From a virus, in IMG/VR virus record IMGVR_UViG_3300027759_000538, positions 1 through 20,040 of that record: 20,040 bases of DNA; one strand, written 5' to 3'. A program made the position numbers and the translations under genes. A model generated the notes under the pieces. It saw only the letters and a list, made by a program, of their open reading frames with translations. It was not told where the DNA came from and searched no databases. Positions 4,805 to 19,192 of the stretch are shown here, one piece after another (position 1 is the first letter of the stretch; each line of letters opens with the position of its first letter).

Positions 4805-5641
4805 ATGAATACTAAGAATAAATCAGCTAAGAATCAATCAGCTAAGAATCAACTACTTGTAAACTTTGAAGGAAACATAGTCAAAGTAGGTTCGCTACTT
4901 AGTACTAATATGAAGTTATTAAAGGATAAAATTAACGGATATGATATTAGAGGTATACAAATTGCACCCGCTAACATAGGCGGGTTTAATGTTTGCCCTA
5001 GTGCAAGCGAAGGATGCAAAAAGGCTTGCATATATTCTTCGGGTCGTGGTCGTTTCACTAAGACACAAATTGCAAGAATAAAACGCAAGTTATTGTTTTT
5101 TCAATATACGAATACTTTCAAAGTACAATTAATTAAAGAAATAACTTCATTCGTTAAAAGATGTATAAAAAACAATGTAAAGCCCGCTATTCGTTTGAAT
5201 GTTTTTAGTGATCTTCCCTATGAAAAAATATTCCCCGAATTGTTTACAATGTTTCCTAATATACAATTCTATGACTACACTAAAATCAAGTCTAGACTCG
5301 ATAAGTCTAAACTACCATCGAATTACCATCTTACATATTCACGAAGTGAAAATACTAGTGATAACGAAGTAATGGAAATCATCTCGAGCGGGTTTAATGT
5401 TGCTATACCATTCAATAGCAAGAAACACGAATTGCCAAAAACATTCTTAGGTATACCTGTTCTTGATGGTGATCTTAGTGATATACGCTTTTTGGACGCT
5501 AGCGGGTCGATAGTTGGATTATCTGTTAAAGGTGATAACAAAGTTAAGAATAGCTTGAATAATGGTTTTATAGTCGATGTGAATAGTCGACAAGTTATTG
5601 AAAATAAACCTAGGTTTATTATTTCGTTAACGATGGCTTAA
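4805..5641 (+). CDS. GP88-like phage protein with conserved Cys cluster
   Basis: 278 residues. Residues 50-84 carry the hallmark of the phage 'gene product 88' family: a segment reading IQIAPANIGGFNVCP, then Cys64, Cys71 and Cys75 in CPSASEGCKKAC, then the GRGRF turn. Further on, RLNVFSDLPYEKIFP (about 125-140) resembles a conserved segment of the same family. The biochemical function of the family is unknown; the three cysteines suggest a metal or iron-sulfur site, which is inference. The N-terminus has two tandem copies of the 15-bp unit AATCAGCTAAGAATC (4821-4850), which encode the repeated NQSAK. The ribosome binding site AAAGGG lies before the ATG. Family assignment is from memory of the motif. 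Confidence 0.7.
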   Translation: MNTKNKSAKNQSAKNQLLVNFEGNIVKVGSLLSTNMKLLKDKINGYDIRGIQIAPANIGGFNVCPSASEGCKKACIYSSGRGRFTKTQIARIKRKLLFFQYTNTFKVQLIKEITSFVKRCIKNNVKPAIRLNVFSDLPYEKIFPELFTMFPNIQFYDYTKIKSRLDKSKLPSNYHLTYSRSENTSDNEVMEIISSGFNVAIPFNSKKHELPKTFLGIPVLDGDLSDIRFLDASGSIVGLSVKGDNKVKNSLNNGFIVDVNSRQVIENKPRFIISLTMA

Positions 5642-9256: not shown

Positions 9257-9568
9257 ATGAAAAGACCTATTGAATGTTCAAAGTGCGGTAAGCATATCAT
9301 TAAAATGTATGGCTACAAAGACCTATGCAATTTATGCCACACAAAGAGTTTAAACTTATCAGCAAGAGGTACTGCGGAGCTTAAAAAGCTAAGAGATGAA
9401 TTAAAGGAAGTTAAAGCAAAGTTAAAGAAGTTAAGAACAACTTTAGCTAATACTAAACTATCGTTGAAGACTGCTGCAAGGGTTAATGAAAGGCTTAAGG
9501 CTGATCATCGTTCTGATTTCGAGTGGGATCGTGAGCGAATCAAACAATACAACAAGGATAAATCGTGA
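9257..9568 (+). CDS. Zinc-ribbon and coiled-coil protein (103 aa)
   Basis: The start is ATG 9257, with AGGAAG before it; an earlier start would overlap the hairpin. Residues 1-27 hold two CxxC knuckles (CSKCGKH and CNLCHTK), a small zinc ribbon. Residues about 35-85 are a Lys/Leu/Glu-rich coiled coil (ELKKLRDELKEVKAKLKKLR). The pairing suggests a nucleic-acid or protein adaptor; the exact role is unknown. The stop TGA overlaps the GTG start of the methyltransferase, so the two are translationally coupled. Confidence 0.65.
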   Translation: MKRPIECSKCGKHIIKMYGYKDLCNLCHTKSLNLSARGTAELKKLRDELKEVKAKLKKLRTTLANTKLSLKTAARVNERLKADHRSDFEWDRERIKQYNKDKS

Positions 9569-10518
9569 ACTATCTTTCAGTTTGTTCTGGCGTTGAAGCA
9601 GCAACTGTTGCCTGGAATTCTATTGGATTTGAACCTATAGGATATTCAGAAATCGATAAGTTTTGCTGCGATTTACTAAAACAGAAATACCCTCAGACCC
9701 CTAATTTTGGAGACATAAATGGAAATTCAACCTGGCAAATTCCCAGAGCAATCGACATACTTATCGGGGGAACTCCTTGCCAAAGCTTTAGCCTCGCTGG
9801 CCTCAGAAAGGGAACAGACGATCCAAGAGGTGGACTTGTCTACAAGTTTTGTGAATTGGTGCGGGATAGAAAACCAAGATGGATTGTTTGGGAAAATGTG
9901 CAGGGAGTCCTATCAACTAACGGAGGAAGAGACTTTGGTTCCTTCATCAGGTCGCTGGCTGAATTCGGGTATCATCTCTGCTGGCGGGTTCTTGACTCTC
10001 AACACTTCGGATTGCCCCATAGAAGGAAAAGAGTCTTCCTTATCGGGCATTATTCAGACAGAACAAGTGGATACAAAGTTTTATTTGAGCAAGGTTGCTT
10101 GTCAAGGATTTATCAGGAGAGACAGCATGGGAAAAAGCCTTCCAGTTCGTTTGAAGGAAGCTATGATTGCCCATTCTGCAAATCACATACAACCTTAGAC
10201 CCCAAAAAAACTGGATGCAATTACTGTGGAGCATGGGTAAAAAATCCAGTCAATTGTATATCTGATGGGGCACATATGGGGGGTGGTATCAACGGTCAGG
10301 ATTACAATTCTGGAAGAATTATCGTTCAACCTGATGGAAGGGTTAGAAGACTAACACCACTTGAAATAGAAAGGCTAATGGGGTTCCCAGACAACTACAC
10401 TAACATTTCTGGGGCAAAAGATGGCAATAGGTTTAAGGCAATGGCCAATTCGATGTGTGTACCTGTGATTAAATGGATTGGAGAAAGGATAGCGGAAGTC
10501 GATTCCACTAGCAAATAG
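9565..10518 (+). CDS. DNA (cytosine-5) methyltransferase
   Basis: A 317-residue C5 methyltransferase with the family motifs in order: motif I SVCSGVEAAT (5-14), the catalytic loop GGTPCQSFS (68-76, nucleophile Cys72), ENV (110-112), QHFGLPHRRKRVFLIG (146-161), motif IX RRLTPLEIERLMGFP (261-275) and motif X MANSMCVPV (293-301). It transfers a methyl group from S-adenosylmethionine to cytosine C5 in a short target, in phages usually to evade restriction. The target-recognition region (162-260) contains a four-cysteine knuckle pair (C202, C205, C218, C221). The start is GTG 9565, with AAGGA 8 bases upstream and a GTGA overlap with the preceding gene. No cognate restriction endonuclease is adjacent. 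A second ORF lies wholly inside it (9719-10198). Confidence 0.92.
   Translation: MNYLSVCSGVEAATVAWNSIGFEPIGYSEIDKFCCDLLKQKYPQTPNFGDINGNSTWQIPRAIDILIGGTPCQSFSLAGLRKGTDDPRGGLVYKFCELVRDRKPRWIVWENVQGVLSTNGGRDFGSFIRSLAEFGYHLCWRVLDSQHFGLPHRRKRVFLIGHYSDRTSGYKVLFEQGCLSRIYQERQHGKKPSSSFEGSYDCPFCKSHTTLDPKKTGCNYCGAWVKNPVNCISDGAHMGGGINGQDYNSGRIIVQPDGRVRRLTPLEIERLMGFPDNYTNISGAKDGNRFKAMANSMCVPVIKWIGERIAEVDSTSK
9719..10198 (+). CDS. Embedded overlapping ORF in the methyltransferase, conserved-looking phage protein
   Basis: This 159-residue frame, shifted by one relative to the methyltransferase and fully inside it, has its own ribosome binding site, GGAG (9709-9712), 6 bases before ATG. Its sequence resembles, from memory, a phage protein family annotated near or over cytosine methyltransferase genes, with the order LFGKM (57-61), then SGRWLNSG (77-84), FLTLNTSDCP (91-100), SSLSGI, then FYLSKVACQGFIRR (121-134) and GKSLPVRLKEAM (138-149). 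If expressed, it is a genuine gene-in-gene. The alternative is that homologues are shadow translations that persist because the methyltransferase is conserved. Function unknown. Confidence 0.55.
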   Translation: MEIQPGKFPEQSTYLSGELLAKALASLASEREQTIQEVDLSTSFVNWCGIENQDGLFGKMCRESYQLTEEETLVPSSGRWLNSGIISAGGFLTLNTSDCPIEGKESSLSGIIQTEQVDTKFYLSKVACQGFIRRDSMGKSLPVRLKEAMIAHSANHIQP

Positions 10519-11506: not shown

Positions 11507-12340
11507 TCAATCAGTACAATGACAACTAATCGTGTCATCAAAATCAGGAAACATTGGAAGTTGCATTCTAGATTGTTTCATTACATTTTCATAGCTTGGT
11601 CGATCTTTTCTAAAGGTGTGCTGCCTAGCTACAACACTACCGATCATTTTTTTCTCTTGTTCTATCCACCAATCCAAAGCTTCGGGAGTTTCTTTTGCAA
11701 CCAAATCCAATCGATATCTAGACTTTAAAAAGCAACCTTGGCAATTACCTTGGTGTTGAGGAATATCTAAATCAAAAGATTGTTTACCCCAGAAACTCAT
11801 AACATCTGGCAATGTATGTCGAGCATCAAACATAGGTGTTAACGCTGGATTTCTTCTAGTGTTTTTCTTTATGTTGGCAACTCTTCTTGGTTCATCGTAT
11901 CGCAATCCAATAAGTTGATTGTGCTTATGAAAAAGTTTGCCGTAAACATCTTTCATATATCGATCCAGCAACCTTATTTTTAGTTCAACTGTGCAAAACC
12001 TGGCAACAGGATTAGGAAGATATTGTCGCTCATCAATAAGAATCCCAAATGGTTCTCCGTTTCTTGAAGCATCTTTATGATTAGTTACTTTATATCTTGG
12101 ATCTATTTTCCTACCAACATATTCCAGCCAAGTTATATTTATCTTCCATTCTTCAGAACACTTCTGAACAAAGTCTAAAGTCTTTGGATGCTCCAAACCT
12201 GTGTTACAAAAAACAACTTTAACATATTCTGGAAGAACATTTTCATGTGCCTCTAAAACTTTAGCCAACATAAATCCAGATGTTCTACCACCGCTAAAAG
12301 AAATAACAGATGGATCTTTTAAGAAATACTTGCTATCCAT
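11507..12340 (-). CDS. PAPS reductase-family (PP-loop) phage protein
   Basis: 277 residues. The PP-loop SFSGGRTSGFML (14-25) binds ATP or a phosphosulfate. RFCTVELK (114-121) and GLRYDEPRR (145-153) follow as in the phage PAPS-reductase-like family, and the Cys pair of GNCQGCFLKSR (C200, C203) is a conserved family segment that may carry a metal or iron-sulfur cluster. AAAGGGG is 7 bases before ATG 12340. It overlaps the preceding HTH-like gene by 8 bases. Phage members are not known to reduce sulfate; proposed roles include nucleotide or DNA modification. The related DndC/SspD function cannot be inferred from this sequence alone. Confidence 0.82.
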   Translation of the reverse strand: MDSKYFLKDPSVISFSGGRTSGFMLAKVLEAHENVLPEYVKVVFCNTGLEHPKTLDFVQKCSEEWKINITWLEYVGRKIDPRYKVTNHKDASRNGEPFGILIDERQYLPNPVARFCTVELKIRLLDRYMKDVYGKLFHKHNQLIGLRYDEPRRVANIKKNTRRNPALTPMFDARHTLPDVMSFWGKQSFDLDIPQHQGNCQGCFLKSRYRLDLVAKETPEALDWWIEQEKKMIGSVVARQHTFRKDRPSYENVMKQSRMQLPMFPDFDDTISCHCTD

Positions 12341-13624: not shown

Positions 13625-13996
13625 TCAGTTTTTGGTAAGTTCAATTGCAACATAAGAATCGTCACCATTTGTAAGCTTTTTGCCTAACTTAATAGTGATT
13701 GATTTAACACAATCTGTATCATCTCCTAAAAGATAACCACAATGCTGTAGTTGGTCTAATATCGGCTTAATACGGTTATCCAAATCAGATTTTCTCCAGT
13801 TTCTCCCAGGGTAAACCATAATTAATACATCGACTGGAAACAAACAGGCATCAATCCTATTTCGATCATCCGTATGGTGAAAGTTTTCCTCCCGCCATTG
13901 GCGATACTTTTCACTAAGAATAACTCTGCCTTTAAAATTCCTCCAACAAGCGTTAGCTGATGGAGGAAGGGTAAACAAAATTGGATCGACTGGCAT
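13625..13996 (-). CDS. rusA: RusA-family Holliday junction resolvase
   Basis: 123 residues, close to the size of E. coli RusA (120). The N-terminal segment PILFTLPPSANACWRN resembles the RusA start, and the acidic catalytic set lies in RKSDLDNRIKPILDQL (Asp71, Asp73, Asp81) and LLGDDTDCV (Asp92-93). It resolves four-way junctions during phage recombination. The start is ATG 13996, with GGAG 5 bases upstream, one base after the stop of the exonuclease gene. A longer open frame upstream is an out-of-frame reading of the exonuclease gene. Confidence 0.88.
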   Translation of the reverse strand: MPVDPILFTLPPSANACWRNFKGRVILSEKYRQWREENFHHTDDRNRIDACLFPVDVLIMVYPGRNWRKSDLDNRIKPILDQLQHCGYLLGDDTDCVKSITIKLGKKLTNGDDSYVAIELTKN

Positions 13997-13997
13997 A

Positions 13998-14783
13998 TTA
14001 TCTCCATGACCATGCTGGTGCAGTAAGCTTTGGAACAATTCCATAATACTCAGGCACAAAAACACCAGTCTGATGAGCAGCAAGGTACTTCCTAATCGCT
14101 TCAAACACTTGGTTCTCCGCACGATCAAGATCACTCGAATCAAACTGGCAAACCATGCATGAAGGGTACTCACCCTTGTCTACAATGATATGGTAAACAT
14201 CGTTGATGGGTATCTGCATCGATCTCAGGCAGAATCGATATAAAGCCATCTGACGAAGGTATCCATTAAATACACATTCTTTGGCCCAATCCATTGGATC
14301 GTAGCTACCAACGGTCTTTAAATCGACTAGGAAACCCTTCTCAGGGCAATACATATCAGGGATGAATTTAATCTGCAAGGGTTGCCCATCGAATTCAATA
14401 GTGGTTAAAATTTCTTGTTCACGAACAACACCAGGGCAATTAAAATATTCCGAAGCAGAATTTTCTGCAATTGCAGCGATCATTTTATTAGATTGCTCTA
14501 CATCATCATGGGTAATAATTTCAATACCATCTGTTAAAGATGATTTAAAATTATCCCAAGTTTCTTTGCCAACCTTAGTTCGCTTATCGCAGACAGGAGC
14601 AACCGCAAAGCGTTCACTAACTGTAGCTGGTTCAAGCAACATTGCATGAACTAAAGATCCAAGGATCATAGCTGGAGAAGGATCACGAACAACAACCTTG
14701 TCAATATAAGTCTTCTTATAAAGGACTGGGCTTTTGCGAAACAACTCCAAGCGGGAATGAGACACATATTCAATTGGAAACAT
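13998..14783 (-). CDS. PD-(D/E)XK exonuclease, RecE/DUF3799-like
   Basis: 261 residues. Conserved family segments appear in order: VSHSRLELFRKSPVLYKKTY (7-26), GSLVHAMLLEP with His46 (42-52), KFIPDMYC with Asp143, GFLVDLKTV with Asp154 and Lys156, and GYLRQMALYR with Tyr175 and Gln178. This is the order of the RecE-type PD-(D/E)XK nuclease found beside annealing proteins. It would process double-strand ends. It begins TAATG-overlapping the stop of the preceding gene, with AAGG 8 bases before ATG 14783. RusA follows directly. Confidence 0.85.
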   Translation of the reverse strand: MFPIEYVSHSRLELFRKSPVLYKKTYIDKVVVRDPSPAMILGSLVHAMLLEPATVSERFAVAPVCDKRTKVGKETWDNFKSSLTDGIEIITHDDVEQSNKMIAAIAENSASEYFNCPGVVREQEILTTIEFDGQPLQIKFIPDMYCPEKGFLVDLKTVGSYDPMDWAKECVFNGYLRQMALYRFCLRSMQIPINDVYHIIVDKGEYPSCMVCQFDSSDLDRAENQVFEAIRKYLAAHQTGVFVPEYYGIVPKLTAPAWSWR

Positions 14784-15978: not shown

Positions 15979-16431
15979 ATGGAAGATGAAATTACCATGA
16001 TTGATCAAGAGTTGAGGCAGATAGTTGCTCCGAGTTTTTCGCCACCATGCAGTCTTAATGAAGATGCATATGTGGAACCGCTAACCATAACAGGTGTTGT
16101 TAATGCTGACGAGCAGCTTTTGAAGTTTCTTTTGTTCAACGGCATATCTACCCATGCTATTGGGCAAAACAAGATGATGTCTATCACCAGTATAGATGAC
16201 ATCACTTCGGGCAGAGGATCGTATTCTGACACGATCATAAAAGTGAGAATGAAAATGGGCGATTTAAACACAGTTGTTTCTATTGAATTATCAAATGAGC
16301 AACTTGAAGAAATTGTAAGGATTGGTCTTCGCACTCAGTTTGGTGCAAGTGTTGAGTCAGTCAAAGTGATATCGTTGTATCACGGACTTAAAAAGTACGA
16401 GTTAGAAGTTACTTTTAAAGGGAGAGGTTAA
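15979..16431 (+). CDS. Hypothetical protein (150 aa)
   Basis: Begins MEDEITMIDQELRQIVAPSF with several small strands in the middle (TIIKVRMKMGDLNTVVSIEL) and a helix NEQLEEIVRIGLRTQFG, ending in an alternating strand pair (VKVISLYHGLKKYELEVTFK). This looks like a compact alpha/beta domain, but no family was recognised. AAAGGGG is before the ATG. The stop overlaps the next start by TAATG, so it is coupled to the Sak4-like ATPase. An alternative ATG at residue 7 is possible. Confidence 0.65.
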   Translation: MEDEITMIDQELRQIVAPSFSPPCSLNEDAYVEPLTITGVVNADEQLLKFLLFNGISTHAIGQNKMMSITSIDDITSGRGSYSDTIIKVRMKMGDLNTVVSIELSNEQLEEIVRIGLRTQFGASVESVKVISLYHGLKKYELEVTFKGRG

Positions 16432-17171
16432 TGAAAATTGGGAAGCCTGTTGGTTTCGGTTTGACTAACAAGCCAAAGGCAGTTGTCTTTGGTGCAGAGG
16501 GTTCGGGTAAATCTACGATGGGCAGTAAGCTTTCTAAAGCTTTGTTCATTGATGTCGAAGGCGGTATTTCTGGCATTGATATTGATTGTGTGGCAATAAA
16601 AACATGGTCAGAATTTGTGGCTACGATCAAAGAGATCGTAACATCTACAGAGTTTGCTTATGAAAATATTGTCATCGATTCTCTAACCGCTTTGGAAAGA
16701 TTGCTTCATCAGCACATCTGCCAAACATCTGGAGCATCATCAATCGTGCTAGCGTGTGGCGGGTATGGTAAAGGTCTTGTCGAGTCTGTAACGCAGATGT
16801 CTCTGCTTATTAACTCGCTAAATGCCAAGAAGGATCTTGGGGTTTACTTCCTGTGTCATTCAACAGTAAAGTCTGTCAATGATCCAACAAGAGGTGAATA
16901 CGCTTCTTTTGGGGTTCGGGCTGATAAGGCCATGTCTGAATGGGTTACTTCTTGGGCTGATCTAATTGGCTTCGTTGAAATCGACCTGATGGTTGGTGAC
17001 GATGGCAAGCCAATTATCAAAAAGGATGGTAATGAGGTTCGCAGAACCATTACTGTAACTCCAAGGGGTGGACTGACTGCGAAATCACGGATTCCAGGTG
17101 TGATTGGAACCATGACGGTTGATAGTTTTGTGTCTAAGATCAATGAAATCTTTTCTAAGAAGGGTAAGTAA
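16431..17171 (+). CDS. Sak4-like/AAA_24 ATPase (single-strand annealing recombinase type)
   Basis: 246 residues. Walker A is GAEGSGKST (21-29), followed by ALFIDVEGG, and Walker B is NIVIDSLTALER (79-90). FLCHSTVKS and the C-terminal RRTITVTPRGGLTAK are typical of the phage AAA_24 group, whose Sak4 members act as RecA-core recombinases that bind ssDNA and anneal with an SSB partner. A DUF669 gene follows at once, the usual neighbour. The start is the ATG of the TAATG overlap. Confidence 0.82.
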   Translation: MKIGKPVGFGLTNKPKAVVFGAEGSGKSTMGSKLSKALFIDVEGGISGIDIDCVAIKTWSEFVATIKEIVTSTEFAYENIVIDSLTALERLLHQHICQTSGASSIVLACGGYGKGLVESVTQMSLLINSLNAKKDLGVYFLCHSTVKSVNDPTRGEYASFGVRADKAMSEWVTSWADLIGFVEIDLMVGDDGKPIIKKDGNEVRRTITVTPRGGLTAKSRIPGVIGTMTVDSFVSKINEIFSKKGK

Positions 17172-18257: not shown

Positions 18258-18635
18258 ATGAGTGATGAACCTTTATTCGATCCAGAAGAAACCAAACCGA
18301 TTCCCGCTGGAACTTACTCTGCTCGCATCATGCGAGCGGAGATCAAGACATCCAGAGCGGGAAATAAATATCTTGCTTGCGATATGCAGATACTTCAAGG
18401 GGCACAACAGGGCAGAGCATTGGATGCGAATTTCCATATCTTTTCGACTGATACAAAGTTTCGTGCAGACTCAAGAAGGAAGCTGGCTCGACTGGCTTCA
18501 TCATGCGGTATCACTACTGTAATGAAACCCGAAGAGCTAGTAGACAAACCCTTCCTAGTTGAAATAGGCGAAACAACGGATAACTATGGGGCAACAAATT
18601 TGATTCTTGGGTACTCAAAGTTAGGGAGAAGTTAA
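18258..18635 (+). CDS. DUF669-family protein, copy 2
   Basis: 125 residues. The start is ATG 18258, with TTTGGAG 8 bases before it. IPAGTYSARIMRAEIKTSRA, GRALDANFHIF, LARLASSCGI and NYGATNLILGYSKLG correspond in order to segments of the 17174 DUF669 protein (LPPGEYPVIITKAEVRTKDD and so on), though identity is limited. DUF669 proteins are inferred ssDNA-binding partners of Sak4-like ATPases. Two copies in one operon are uncommon. Its stop overlaps the HNH gene start (TAATG). Confidence 0.72.
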   Translation: MSDEPLFDPEETKPIPAGTYSARIMRAEIKTSRAGNKYLACDMQILQGAQQGRALDANFHIFSTDTKFRADSRRKLARLASSCGITTVMKPEELVDKPFLVEIGETTDNYGATNLILGYSKLGRS

Positions 18636-19192
18636 TGAATGCAATTAAAGAAAGAATTACATCGATAAGTGGAATCCCTTTAGAACATATACAATCGATA
18701 TTAAAAATAGATCCAAGTAGCCCATCGGGGTTAATGTGGATTCCGAGAGAATTACATTTTAATCAAAAAGATAAATGCGGAAGTGTTCGCATTGGGAAAA
18801 AGGATGGATACAGAAGGTTTACTGTAACCATTAGATATGATAAAAAACAATATACTGTAACTTGCAGCAAAATAATATTACTTTTAGCTAACGGATTCCT
18901 TACTGAAGGGAAATATATTGATCATATAGATGGAAATTCTTTAAATAATAATTTAGAAAACTTAAGAGAGGTTACTGCTTGTCAAAACGGACACAACAAA
19001 AAAATTTCAAAAATTAACACATCAGGAAATAAAGGAATTAGTTGGAATAAAAAAAACAAGAAATGGCTAGTGCAAATGGTTGCAAATGGTAAATTTCATT
19101 ATTTTGGACTTTATGAAAATAAAGAAGATGCAATTAAGGTTTCTATAGAAGCAAGAAAAAAACTTCATGGTGAATTTGGGAGAGATAAATAA
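18635..19192 (+). CDS. HNH endonuclease with AP2 domain (homing type)
   Basis: 185 residues. Residues about 80-122 hold the HNH core: ILLLANGFLTEG then YIDHIDGNSLNNNLENLREV (94-113) with Asp96-His97, Asn101 and Asn109. Residues 129-182 are an AP2-type DNA-binding domain (TSGNKGISWNKKNKKW; FGLYENKEDAIKVSIEARKK). This pair is typical of free-standing phage homing endonucleases. Both ends are TAATG overlaps. Its codons are visibly more A/T-rich than the neighbours (strings of AAA, AAT, TTA), which fits a later arrival. Cutting site unknown. Confidence 0.88.
   Translation: MNAIKERITSISGIPLEHIQSILKIDPSSPSGLMWIPRELHFNQKDKCGSVRIGKKDGYRRFTVTIRYDKKQYTVTCSKIILLLANGFLTEGKYIDHIDGNSLNNNLENLREVTACQNGHNKKISKINTSGNKGISWNKKNKKWLVQMVANGKFHYFGLYENKEDAIKVSIEARKKLHGEFGRDK

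Follow-up and report, generated by a model that had tools for sequence, protein, structure and literature searches.

Orphan C5 methyltransferases are common among phage genes. Most validated overprinted genes, in the part of that literature consulted here, come either from small viruses with RNA or ssDNA genomes or from bacteria, as lineage-restricted orphans. Same-strand, fully nested overprinted genes place a novel frame on an older gene, are accompanied by a depletion of synonymous change in the host gene and encode products with little predicted structure, and in these respects the nested gene described here resembles them. Out-of-frame coding inside a phage DNA methylase gene is also on record: Arsenault et al. 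(2025) described hidden HNH endonucleases in phage methylase insertions of actinophages (ShiLan domain, Pacc40 gp60; PMC11855218), where a mobile insertion present in some methylases encodes the HNH nuclease. These hidden HNH genes are the nearest published case to our locus, which likewise has an ORF in another frame of a phage DNA methylase gene and differs from them in the defining features tested. Searches of open-access papers yielded no description of the nested family itself.

The methyltransferase gene and its nested reading frame

The locus lies in an IMG/VR virus record (IMGVR_UViG_3300027759_000538), of which we analysed a stretch of 20,040 nucleotides, henceforth the window. The features to which we refer are the following.

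9565 to 10518, plus strand: C5-cytosine DNA methyltransferase (MTase) gene, 317 aa, GTG start; the frame enclosing the nested gene
9709 to 9712, plus strand: GGAG, Shine-Dalgarno-like, seen in the sequence; followed by 6 nt (acataa) and then the ATG at 9719-9721
9719 to 10198, plus strand: nested +1-frame gene, 159 aa, ATG start, all within the MTase ORF
10079 to 10189 (approximate), plus strand: C-terminal two-helix segment of the nested protein as predicted by AlphaFold2 (about residues 121-157; helices 125-136 and 143-156)
4805 to 5641, plus strand: GP88-domain protein
11507 to 12340, minus strand: phage-borne PAPS-reductase-domain protein (PF01507, E 8e-8)
13625 to 14173, minus strand: RusA resolvase
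13998 to 14783, minus strand: PDDEXK nuclease (DUF3799)
16431 to 17171, plus strand: AAA_24 ATPase
18635 to 19192, plus strand: HNH/AP2 endonuclease

Profile searches identified the MTase (PF00145, E 2.9e-61; TIGR00675, E 9.7e-58; phrog_116, E 9e-83), and its translation shows the motifs PCQSFS (IV), ENV (VI) and HRRKR (VIII), the last of which usually reads QRRRR. The gene sits in an ordinary phage replication and recombination region of the window, with no recognised restriction enzyme gene adjoining it. As the original prediction had described, an ORF of 159 residues (9719-10198) lies wholly inside the MTase, with its ATG 6 nt after a GGAG. Its offset of 154 nt from the MTase start places it in the +1 frame, each nested codon being made up of MTase codon positions 2 and 3 and the next position 1, so that a silent third-position change in the MTase falls on position 2 of a nested codon. 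A stop codon of the +1 frame (TAA, 9716-9718) directly abuts the nested ATG. The far end of the nested gene is straddled by a zinc-ribbon-like CPFC-x12-CNYC motif (10168-10227) in the target-recognition region of the MTase.

The predicted motif order is likewise present: the window protein reads LFGKM-SGRW-FLTLNTSDCP-FYLSKVACQGFIRR-SLPVRLKEAM, in agreement with the family consensus of 105-119 homologues (GKTSPxSC, SGRWxNSGM, LTLNTSExP, CSLSDxLETG, YxLSxKACxGILRRAEKRGKxLPxxLxxAL). It ends in a predicted basic two-helix hairpin (KVACQGFIRR...SLPVRLKEAM), upstream of which the conserved GKxSPxSC, SGRWxNSG and LTLNTSxxP are found. Two AlphaFold2 runs gave low overall confidence (mean pLDDT 61-62, pTM 0.27-0.29) except for the C-terminal hairpin; the two-helix block itself reached a pLDDT of 85-89 in P0001 and of 83-96 in family member L164. 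Most likely, the N-terminal half of the nested protein is flexible and is followed by a C-terminal domain that is basic and helical. Relatives in the PDB were found neither by profile search at E <= 1 nor by Foldseek at E <= 0.001, and against the viral library Foldseek gave only two weak hits that make sense, to Mycobacterium phage Thibault gp104 and to a cytosine MTase. Among profiles, Pfam and NCBIfam yielded no match to the window protein, and PHROGs yielded phrog_16143, labelled 'DNA methyltransferase' (E 6.7e-9). That the nested protein is itself a C5 MTase, as this label would have it, was rejected, since none of the 119 nested-family members matches PF00145 in its own frame.

Selection and the start signal in the overlap

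Because the MTase frame contributes to identity in the +1 frame, the raw +1 identity of 40-50% among homologues was not taken as evidence by itself. Instead, we determined for 67 diverse phage MTases how often pairs with the same amino acid share the codon, relative to an expectation from within-gene codon usage. This ratio was 1.06 for codons 0-50, 1.87 (up to 2.9) for codons 52-211 and 1.10 for codons 212-317, and the profile has sharp steps at codons ~52 and ~205 that match the ends of the nested ORF. The synonymous-site check proposed with the original prediction thus revealed a strong excess of constraint in the MTase frame across the overlap. Its companion, dN/dS in the second frame, pointed the same way: in 77 independent pairs dNN/dNS of the +1 frame was 0.41 (0.38-0.43) in the overlap, compared with 0.87-0.90 in the flanks, and changes that are silent in the MTase and alter the +1 product were five-fold rarer inside (d = 0.34) than in the flanks (1.70-1.81). 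In the same pairs, the overlap has reached saturation for changes that are silent in both frames, showing that the overlap DNA is not simply slow to mutate; a constraint at the RNA or DNA level was rejected for the same reason. Within the clade of the window, MTase synonymous differences per 100 codons and pair number 9.4 in the N-terminal flank, 4.1 in the overlap and 16.7 in the C-terminal flank, and dSN drops about nine-fold (0.055 in the overlap vs 0.485 in the C-terminal flank). This clade is shallow, and its dNN/dNS (0.27 in the overlap vs 0.35) does not discriminate.

The caution that apparent conservation must be separated from the shadow cast by the MTase frame was answered with synonymous-codon shuffles. 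We scored 77 MTases, picked regardless of their +1 frame, with a +1 profile from other loci: the real scores had a median of 227 bits, whereas 1540 shuffles had a median of 68 and a maximum of 132, and 0 of 1540 reached the real score of their own gene. Shadow similarity is therefore real, yet explains a minor part only. The shuffles together with the codon-class substitution rates led us to reject shadow conservation.

The signals for initiation of the nested gene are also retained. A Shine-Dalgarno sequence of at least 5 nt accompanied by a start codon is present in 56 of 75 genes, compared with 12% expected from synonymous shuffles. The start is ATG, TTG or GTG at MTase codon 58-60, mostly 7 (in some genes 10) nt after the Shine-Dalgarno sequence. 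The K/Q-E codons before W, which supply it, read AAGGAG (44), CAGGAG (12) or AAAGAA (2), compared with a share of only ~42-46% for G-ending codons at K/Q/E residues elsewhere. In the window clade the start is instead a separate TAAATG, located a few codons before the common site and found in 11 of the 11 close relatives examined.

Distribution of the nested family and a second +1 family

Two samples of MTases, both limited to a single MTase clade and a single viral collection, were chosen independently of the overlap. When selection was by codons 1-52 alone, outside the overlap (80 contigs, 2 of them too short to judge), 75 of 78 genes proved to have an open +1 frame that begins near codon 51 or 59, in rare cases earlier, and extends to around codons 205-230, and the +2 frame carries 2-13 stops over the same stretch. 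The other three are long-insert genes in which the nested ORF begins later. Every non-truncated MTase of this sample matched the +1 profile, which was built from loci selected by their nested frame. Selection by the C-terminus gave 52 usable genes; from motif IV to motif VIII the +1 frame is stop-free in 44 of them, and the +2 frame in 0 of 52. Six of the eight exceptions belong to the long-insert type with a later-starting ORF, and L353 and L374 may be interrupted copies. Regarding the stop codons by which the original prediction could be challenged, 75 independently chosen homologues are thus free of them in the +1 frame, the exception being one or two candidate interrupted copies in the second sample.

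By tblastn, the nested protein of the window matched 28 phage records at 32-52% identity; most of these matches coincide with features whose annotation reads cytosine or DNA methyltransferase. The family consensus matched 216 phage records, including Escherichia phage P1 (dmt) and Vibrio, Streptococcus, Mycobacterium and Caulobacter phages, as well as 535 plasmid records, mostly P1-like phage-plasmids of Escherichia. Scans of viral contigs and genome contigs yielded at least ~600 candidates, and among the matches listed those on genome contigs come from Acidobacteria, Proteobacteria, Actinobacteria, Firmicutes, Planctomycetes, Spirochaetes and Verrucomicrobia. At ~280 loci, prophages of many phyla included, the nested ORF again occupies +1 relative to a C5 MTase; the recurrence of the motif order over C5 MTases in many phages, as stated in the original prediction, was thereby borne out. 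A further proposal, to look for homologues in genomes without an overlapping MTase, came up empty: all resolvable matches, 107 of 107 viral, phage and plasmid loci and 91 of 91 genome and other loci, overlap a C5 MTase gene in its +1 frame, and no free-standing copy was found among the best 80 loci per scan of phages, plasmids, viral contigs and genome contigs. One apparent in-frame copy (L001) was ruled out; its first piece is a segment of the MTase frame with SGKWTNAG, and the genuine copy occupies +1 in this locus as well.

In P1 (NC_005856) the nested ORF occupies 66728-67201 inside dmt (66412-68676), a GGAG stands 7 nt before the ATG at 66728, and the +1 product contains the sequence MQLTTNGLSPSSNRQ. 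In the P1-like phage 813R1 (ON470617, 2246-2755) the C-terminus of the nested protein is altered relative to P1, and the annotation has two hypothetical proteins in place of Dmt; together these suggest that an indel has occurred close to where the nested ORF ends. In a further locus (IMG/VR 3300032289_002179) the MTase has a nonsense codon in the overlap (GLRK*LNDPRG) and the nested frame is intact, representing either a natural knock-out or a sequencing error.

Another C5 MTase clade (PCQPFS ... GNAIxP) carries in its +1 frame members of PHROG 1008 (329 aa, 'DNA methyltransferase'), which come from Alphaproteobacteria and viral contigs; 29 of the 119 nested-family members give weak matches to this profile. 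The PHROG 1008-type ORFs (loci L283, L284-L291 and L318-L326) are mostly 227-377 aa long, with the motifs WPTP and LNPxxSxWLMGYPxEWG, and in this clade the MTase codon identity ratio rises up to 2.6 near the WLMGYP stretch. Both families are encoded in +1 of a C5 MTase gene and have weak profile similarity, but the PHROG 1008 family is longer, extends over nearly the whole MTase gene, belongs to a different clade and has a different C-terminal part. On the strength of this second family, the coding of a further protein in +1 may be a general habit of phage C5 MTases. The motif W-x-x-[S/A]-G lies in the +1 protein of short-type genes (181, vs 0 in the MTase frame) and in the MTase frame of long-insert genes (24, vs 1 in +1; loci L001, L008-L011, L026, L113, L135 and L154), and almost never in both; the DNA segments carrying it may be homologous but frame-shifted between the gene types. 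This alternation is in line with an unrecognised two-protein system, in which at least two +1 families in different MTase clades would be obligate partners setting MTase activity or target choice, a reading that we entertain as speculative and on balance doubtful.

Candidate roles and comparison with known systems

Sequence evolution shows the MTase gene to be dual-coding, with a constrained internal start signal and obligate linkage of the nested gene to the MTase, and it supports the claim that one DNA codes for two unrelated conserved proteins, the nested one with its own start signal. We regard dual coding as nearly certain, being as well supported as sequence alone allows. We infer that the nested protein is made, and our guess is that it is a partner of the MTase. 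On the best reading, the overprinted gene is genuine and encodes a protein that acts either together with the MTase or against restriction by the host. A function in defence or counter-defence, as the original prediction proposed, may apply. The C5 MTase would be translated from the GTG at 9565, and ribosomes would initiate in +1 at the internal Shine-Dalgarno sequence and start codon (9709-9721), giving a separate protein of ~159 residues. Overprinting on the part of a phage MTase gene that encodes the catalytic core would have created the nested gene, which would then have been retained through phage radiations over many host phyla; the nested protein may bind the MTase or the DNA of the MTase and so tune methylation and protection against restriction. 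We lean towards such a partner role for the separate ~159-residue product. Since the nested gene was never found apart from the MTase, its product most likely belongs to the same module; this obligate linkage is no proof of partnership, because overprinting itself makes it hard for a gene to part from its host gene. In laboratory E. coli, CRISPRi knock-down of P1 dmt, which should silence both Dmt and the nested gene, was not harmful to P1 (PMC10695390), so that any function there would be conditional and expected only under restriction or in competition.

The main rival to a role in the methylation module is an independent counter-restriction protein: the overprinted gene would be real, and its product a small anti-restriction or anti-defence protein (e.g. 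DNA-binding, or a nuclease inhibitor) that acts independently of the MTase and is tied to it by origin only. Phage and prophage MTases without a neighbouring restriction enzyme (in the window and among annotated neighbours), the predicted basic helical C-terminus and the dispensability of P1 dmt in the laboratory would all fit. However, no nuclease, defence or anti-restriction profile was matched in Pfam or PHROGs and PADLOC gave only weak hits to MTase models, and independent genes usually also occur free-standing, which was not seen among the best 80 loci per scan; we consider the independent protein unlikely, if far from negligible. An endonuclease, whether a homing enzyme or the restriction partner of the very MTase that conceals it, would have precedent in the out-of-frame HNH genes of phage methylase insertions (PMC11855218), yet HNH, GIY-YIG and PD-(D/E)XK profiles gave no match, the consensus is devoid of a histidine cluster, and rather than residing in an insertion the nested ORF overlies the conserved motifs IV-VIII and is fixed, not scattered, in the clade. 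Identity with a hidden HNH element was rejected on these grounds, and an endonuclease of either kind is very unlikely.

Neither do the data favour readings in which the overlap yields no separate protein. Programmed frameshifting into +1, which would give an MTase with an altered C-terminal part, is in keeping with two long, co-directional frames, but the +1 frame has stops at codons 50 or 58, just before the conserved Shine-Dalgarno sequence and start, and no conserved slippery site was noticed on unsystematic inspection; we judge it extremely unlikely. That there is no second protein at all, with RNA or DNA signals constraining the synonymous sites or the +1 similarity being a shadow of the MTase, is barely credible and already largely refuted. 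The 68-bit median of the shuffles against the +1 profile, and the weak +1 hits (~17-37 bits, mostly with stops) of some cellular MTases, do speak for a shadow, but the real scores exceed every shuffle of their own gene, +1 is without stops and +2 rich in them, and Shine-Dalgarno and start codons are retained; doubly silent sites that are saturated next to MTase-only silent sites that are constrained are not expected from an RNA signal.

The nested gene appears to have been overlooked because it is labelled 'methyltransferase' or left unannotated, and it is present in one or the other state in hundreds of annotated records (216 phage, 535 plasmid). Provided that it is translated, few fully nested genes of tailed phages would be as widely conserved, and phage MTase knock-outs would have to be read differently, since two proteins will have been removed. 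Phage P1 makes the nested gene directly testable in E. coli, and the family offers a large natural data set on two proteins co-evolving on the same DNA.

Isolated annotations of the nested frame are already in the database, as the PHROG 16143 profile (139 aa) matches 107 of 119 nested-family members; its label is misleading, the protein being the other frame of an MTase gene. ORF14 of Streptococcus phage MM1 (CAC48080, 'putative methyltransferase') is an annotated copy of the +1 ORF nested in ORF13, and Thibault gp104 (81 aa, hypothetical) is part of another. As far as we found, both were annotated without recognition as a conserved dual-coding family. In Thibault (L327, 1539-3340) the C5 MTase pieces are split by an HNH endonuclease gene, and the piece of the nested frame after this gene is gp104. 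Compared with the hidden HNH elements, the nested gene lies over the catalytic core itself, is fixed in its clade and has no HNH match. Unlike most validated overprinted genes, it resides in an enzyme gene of tailed phages and has been kept across phages and prophages of many phyla.
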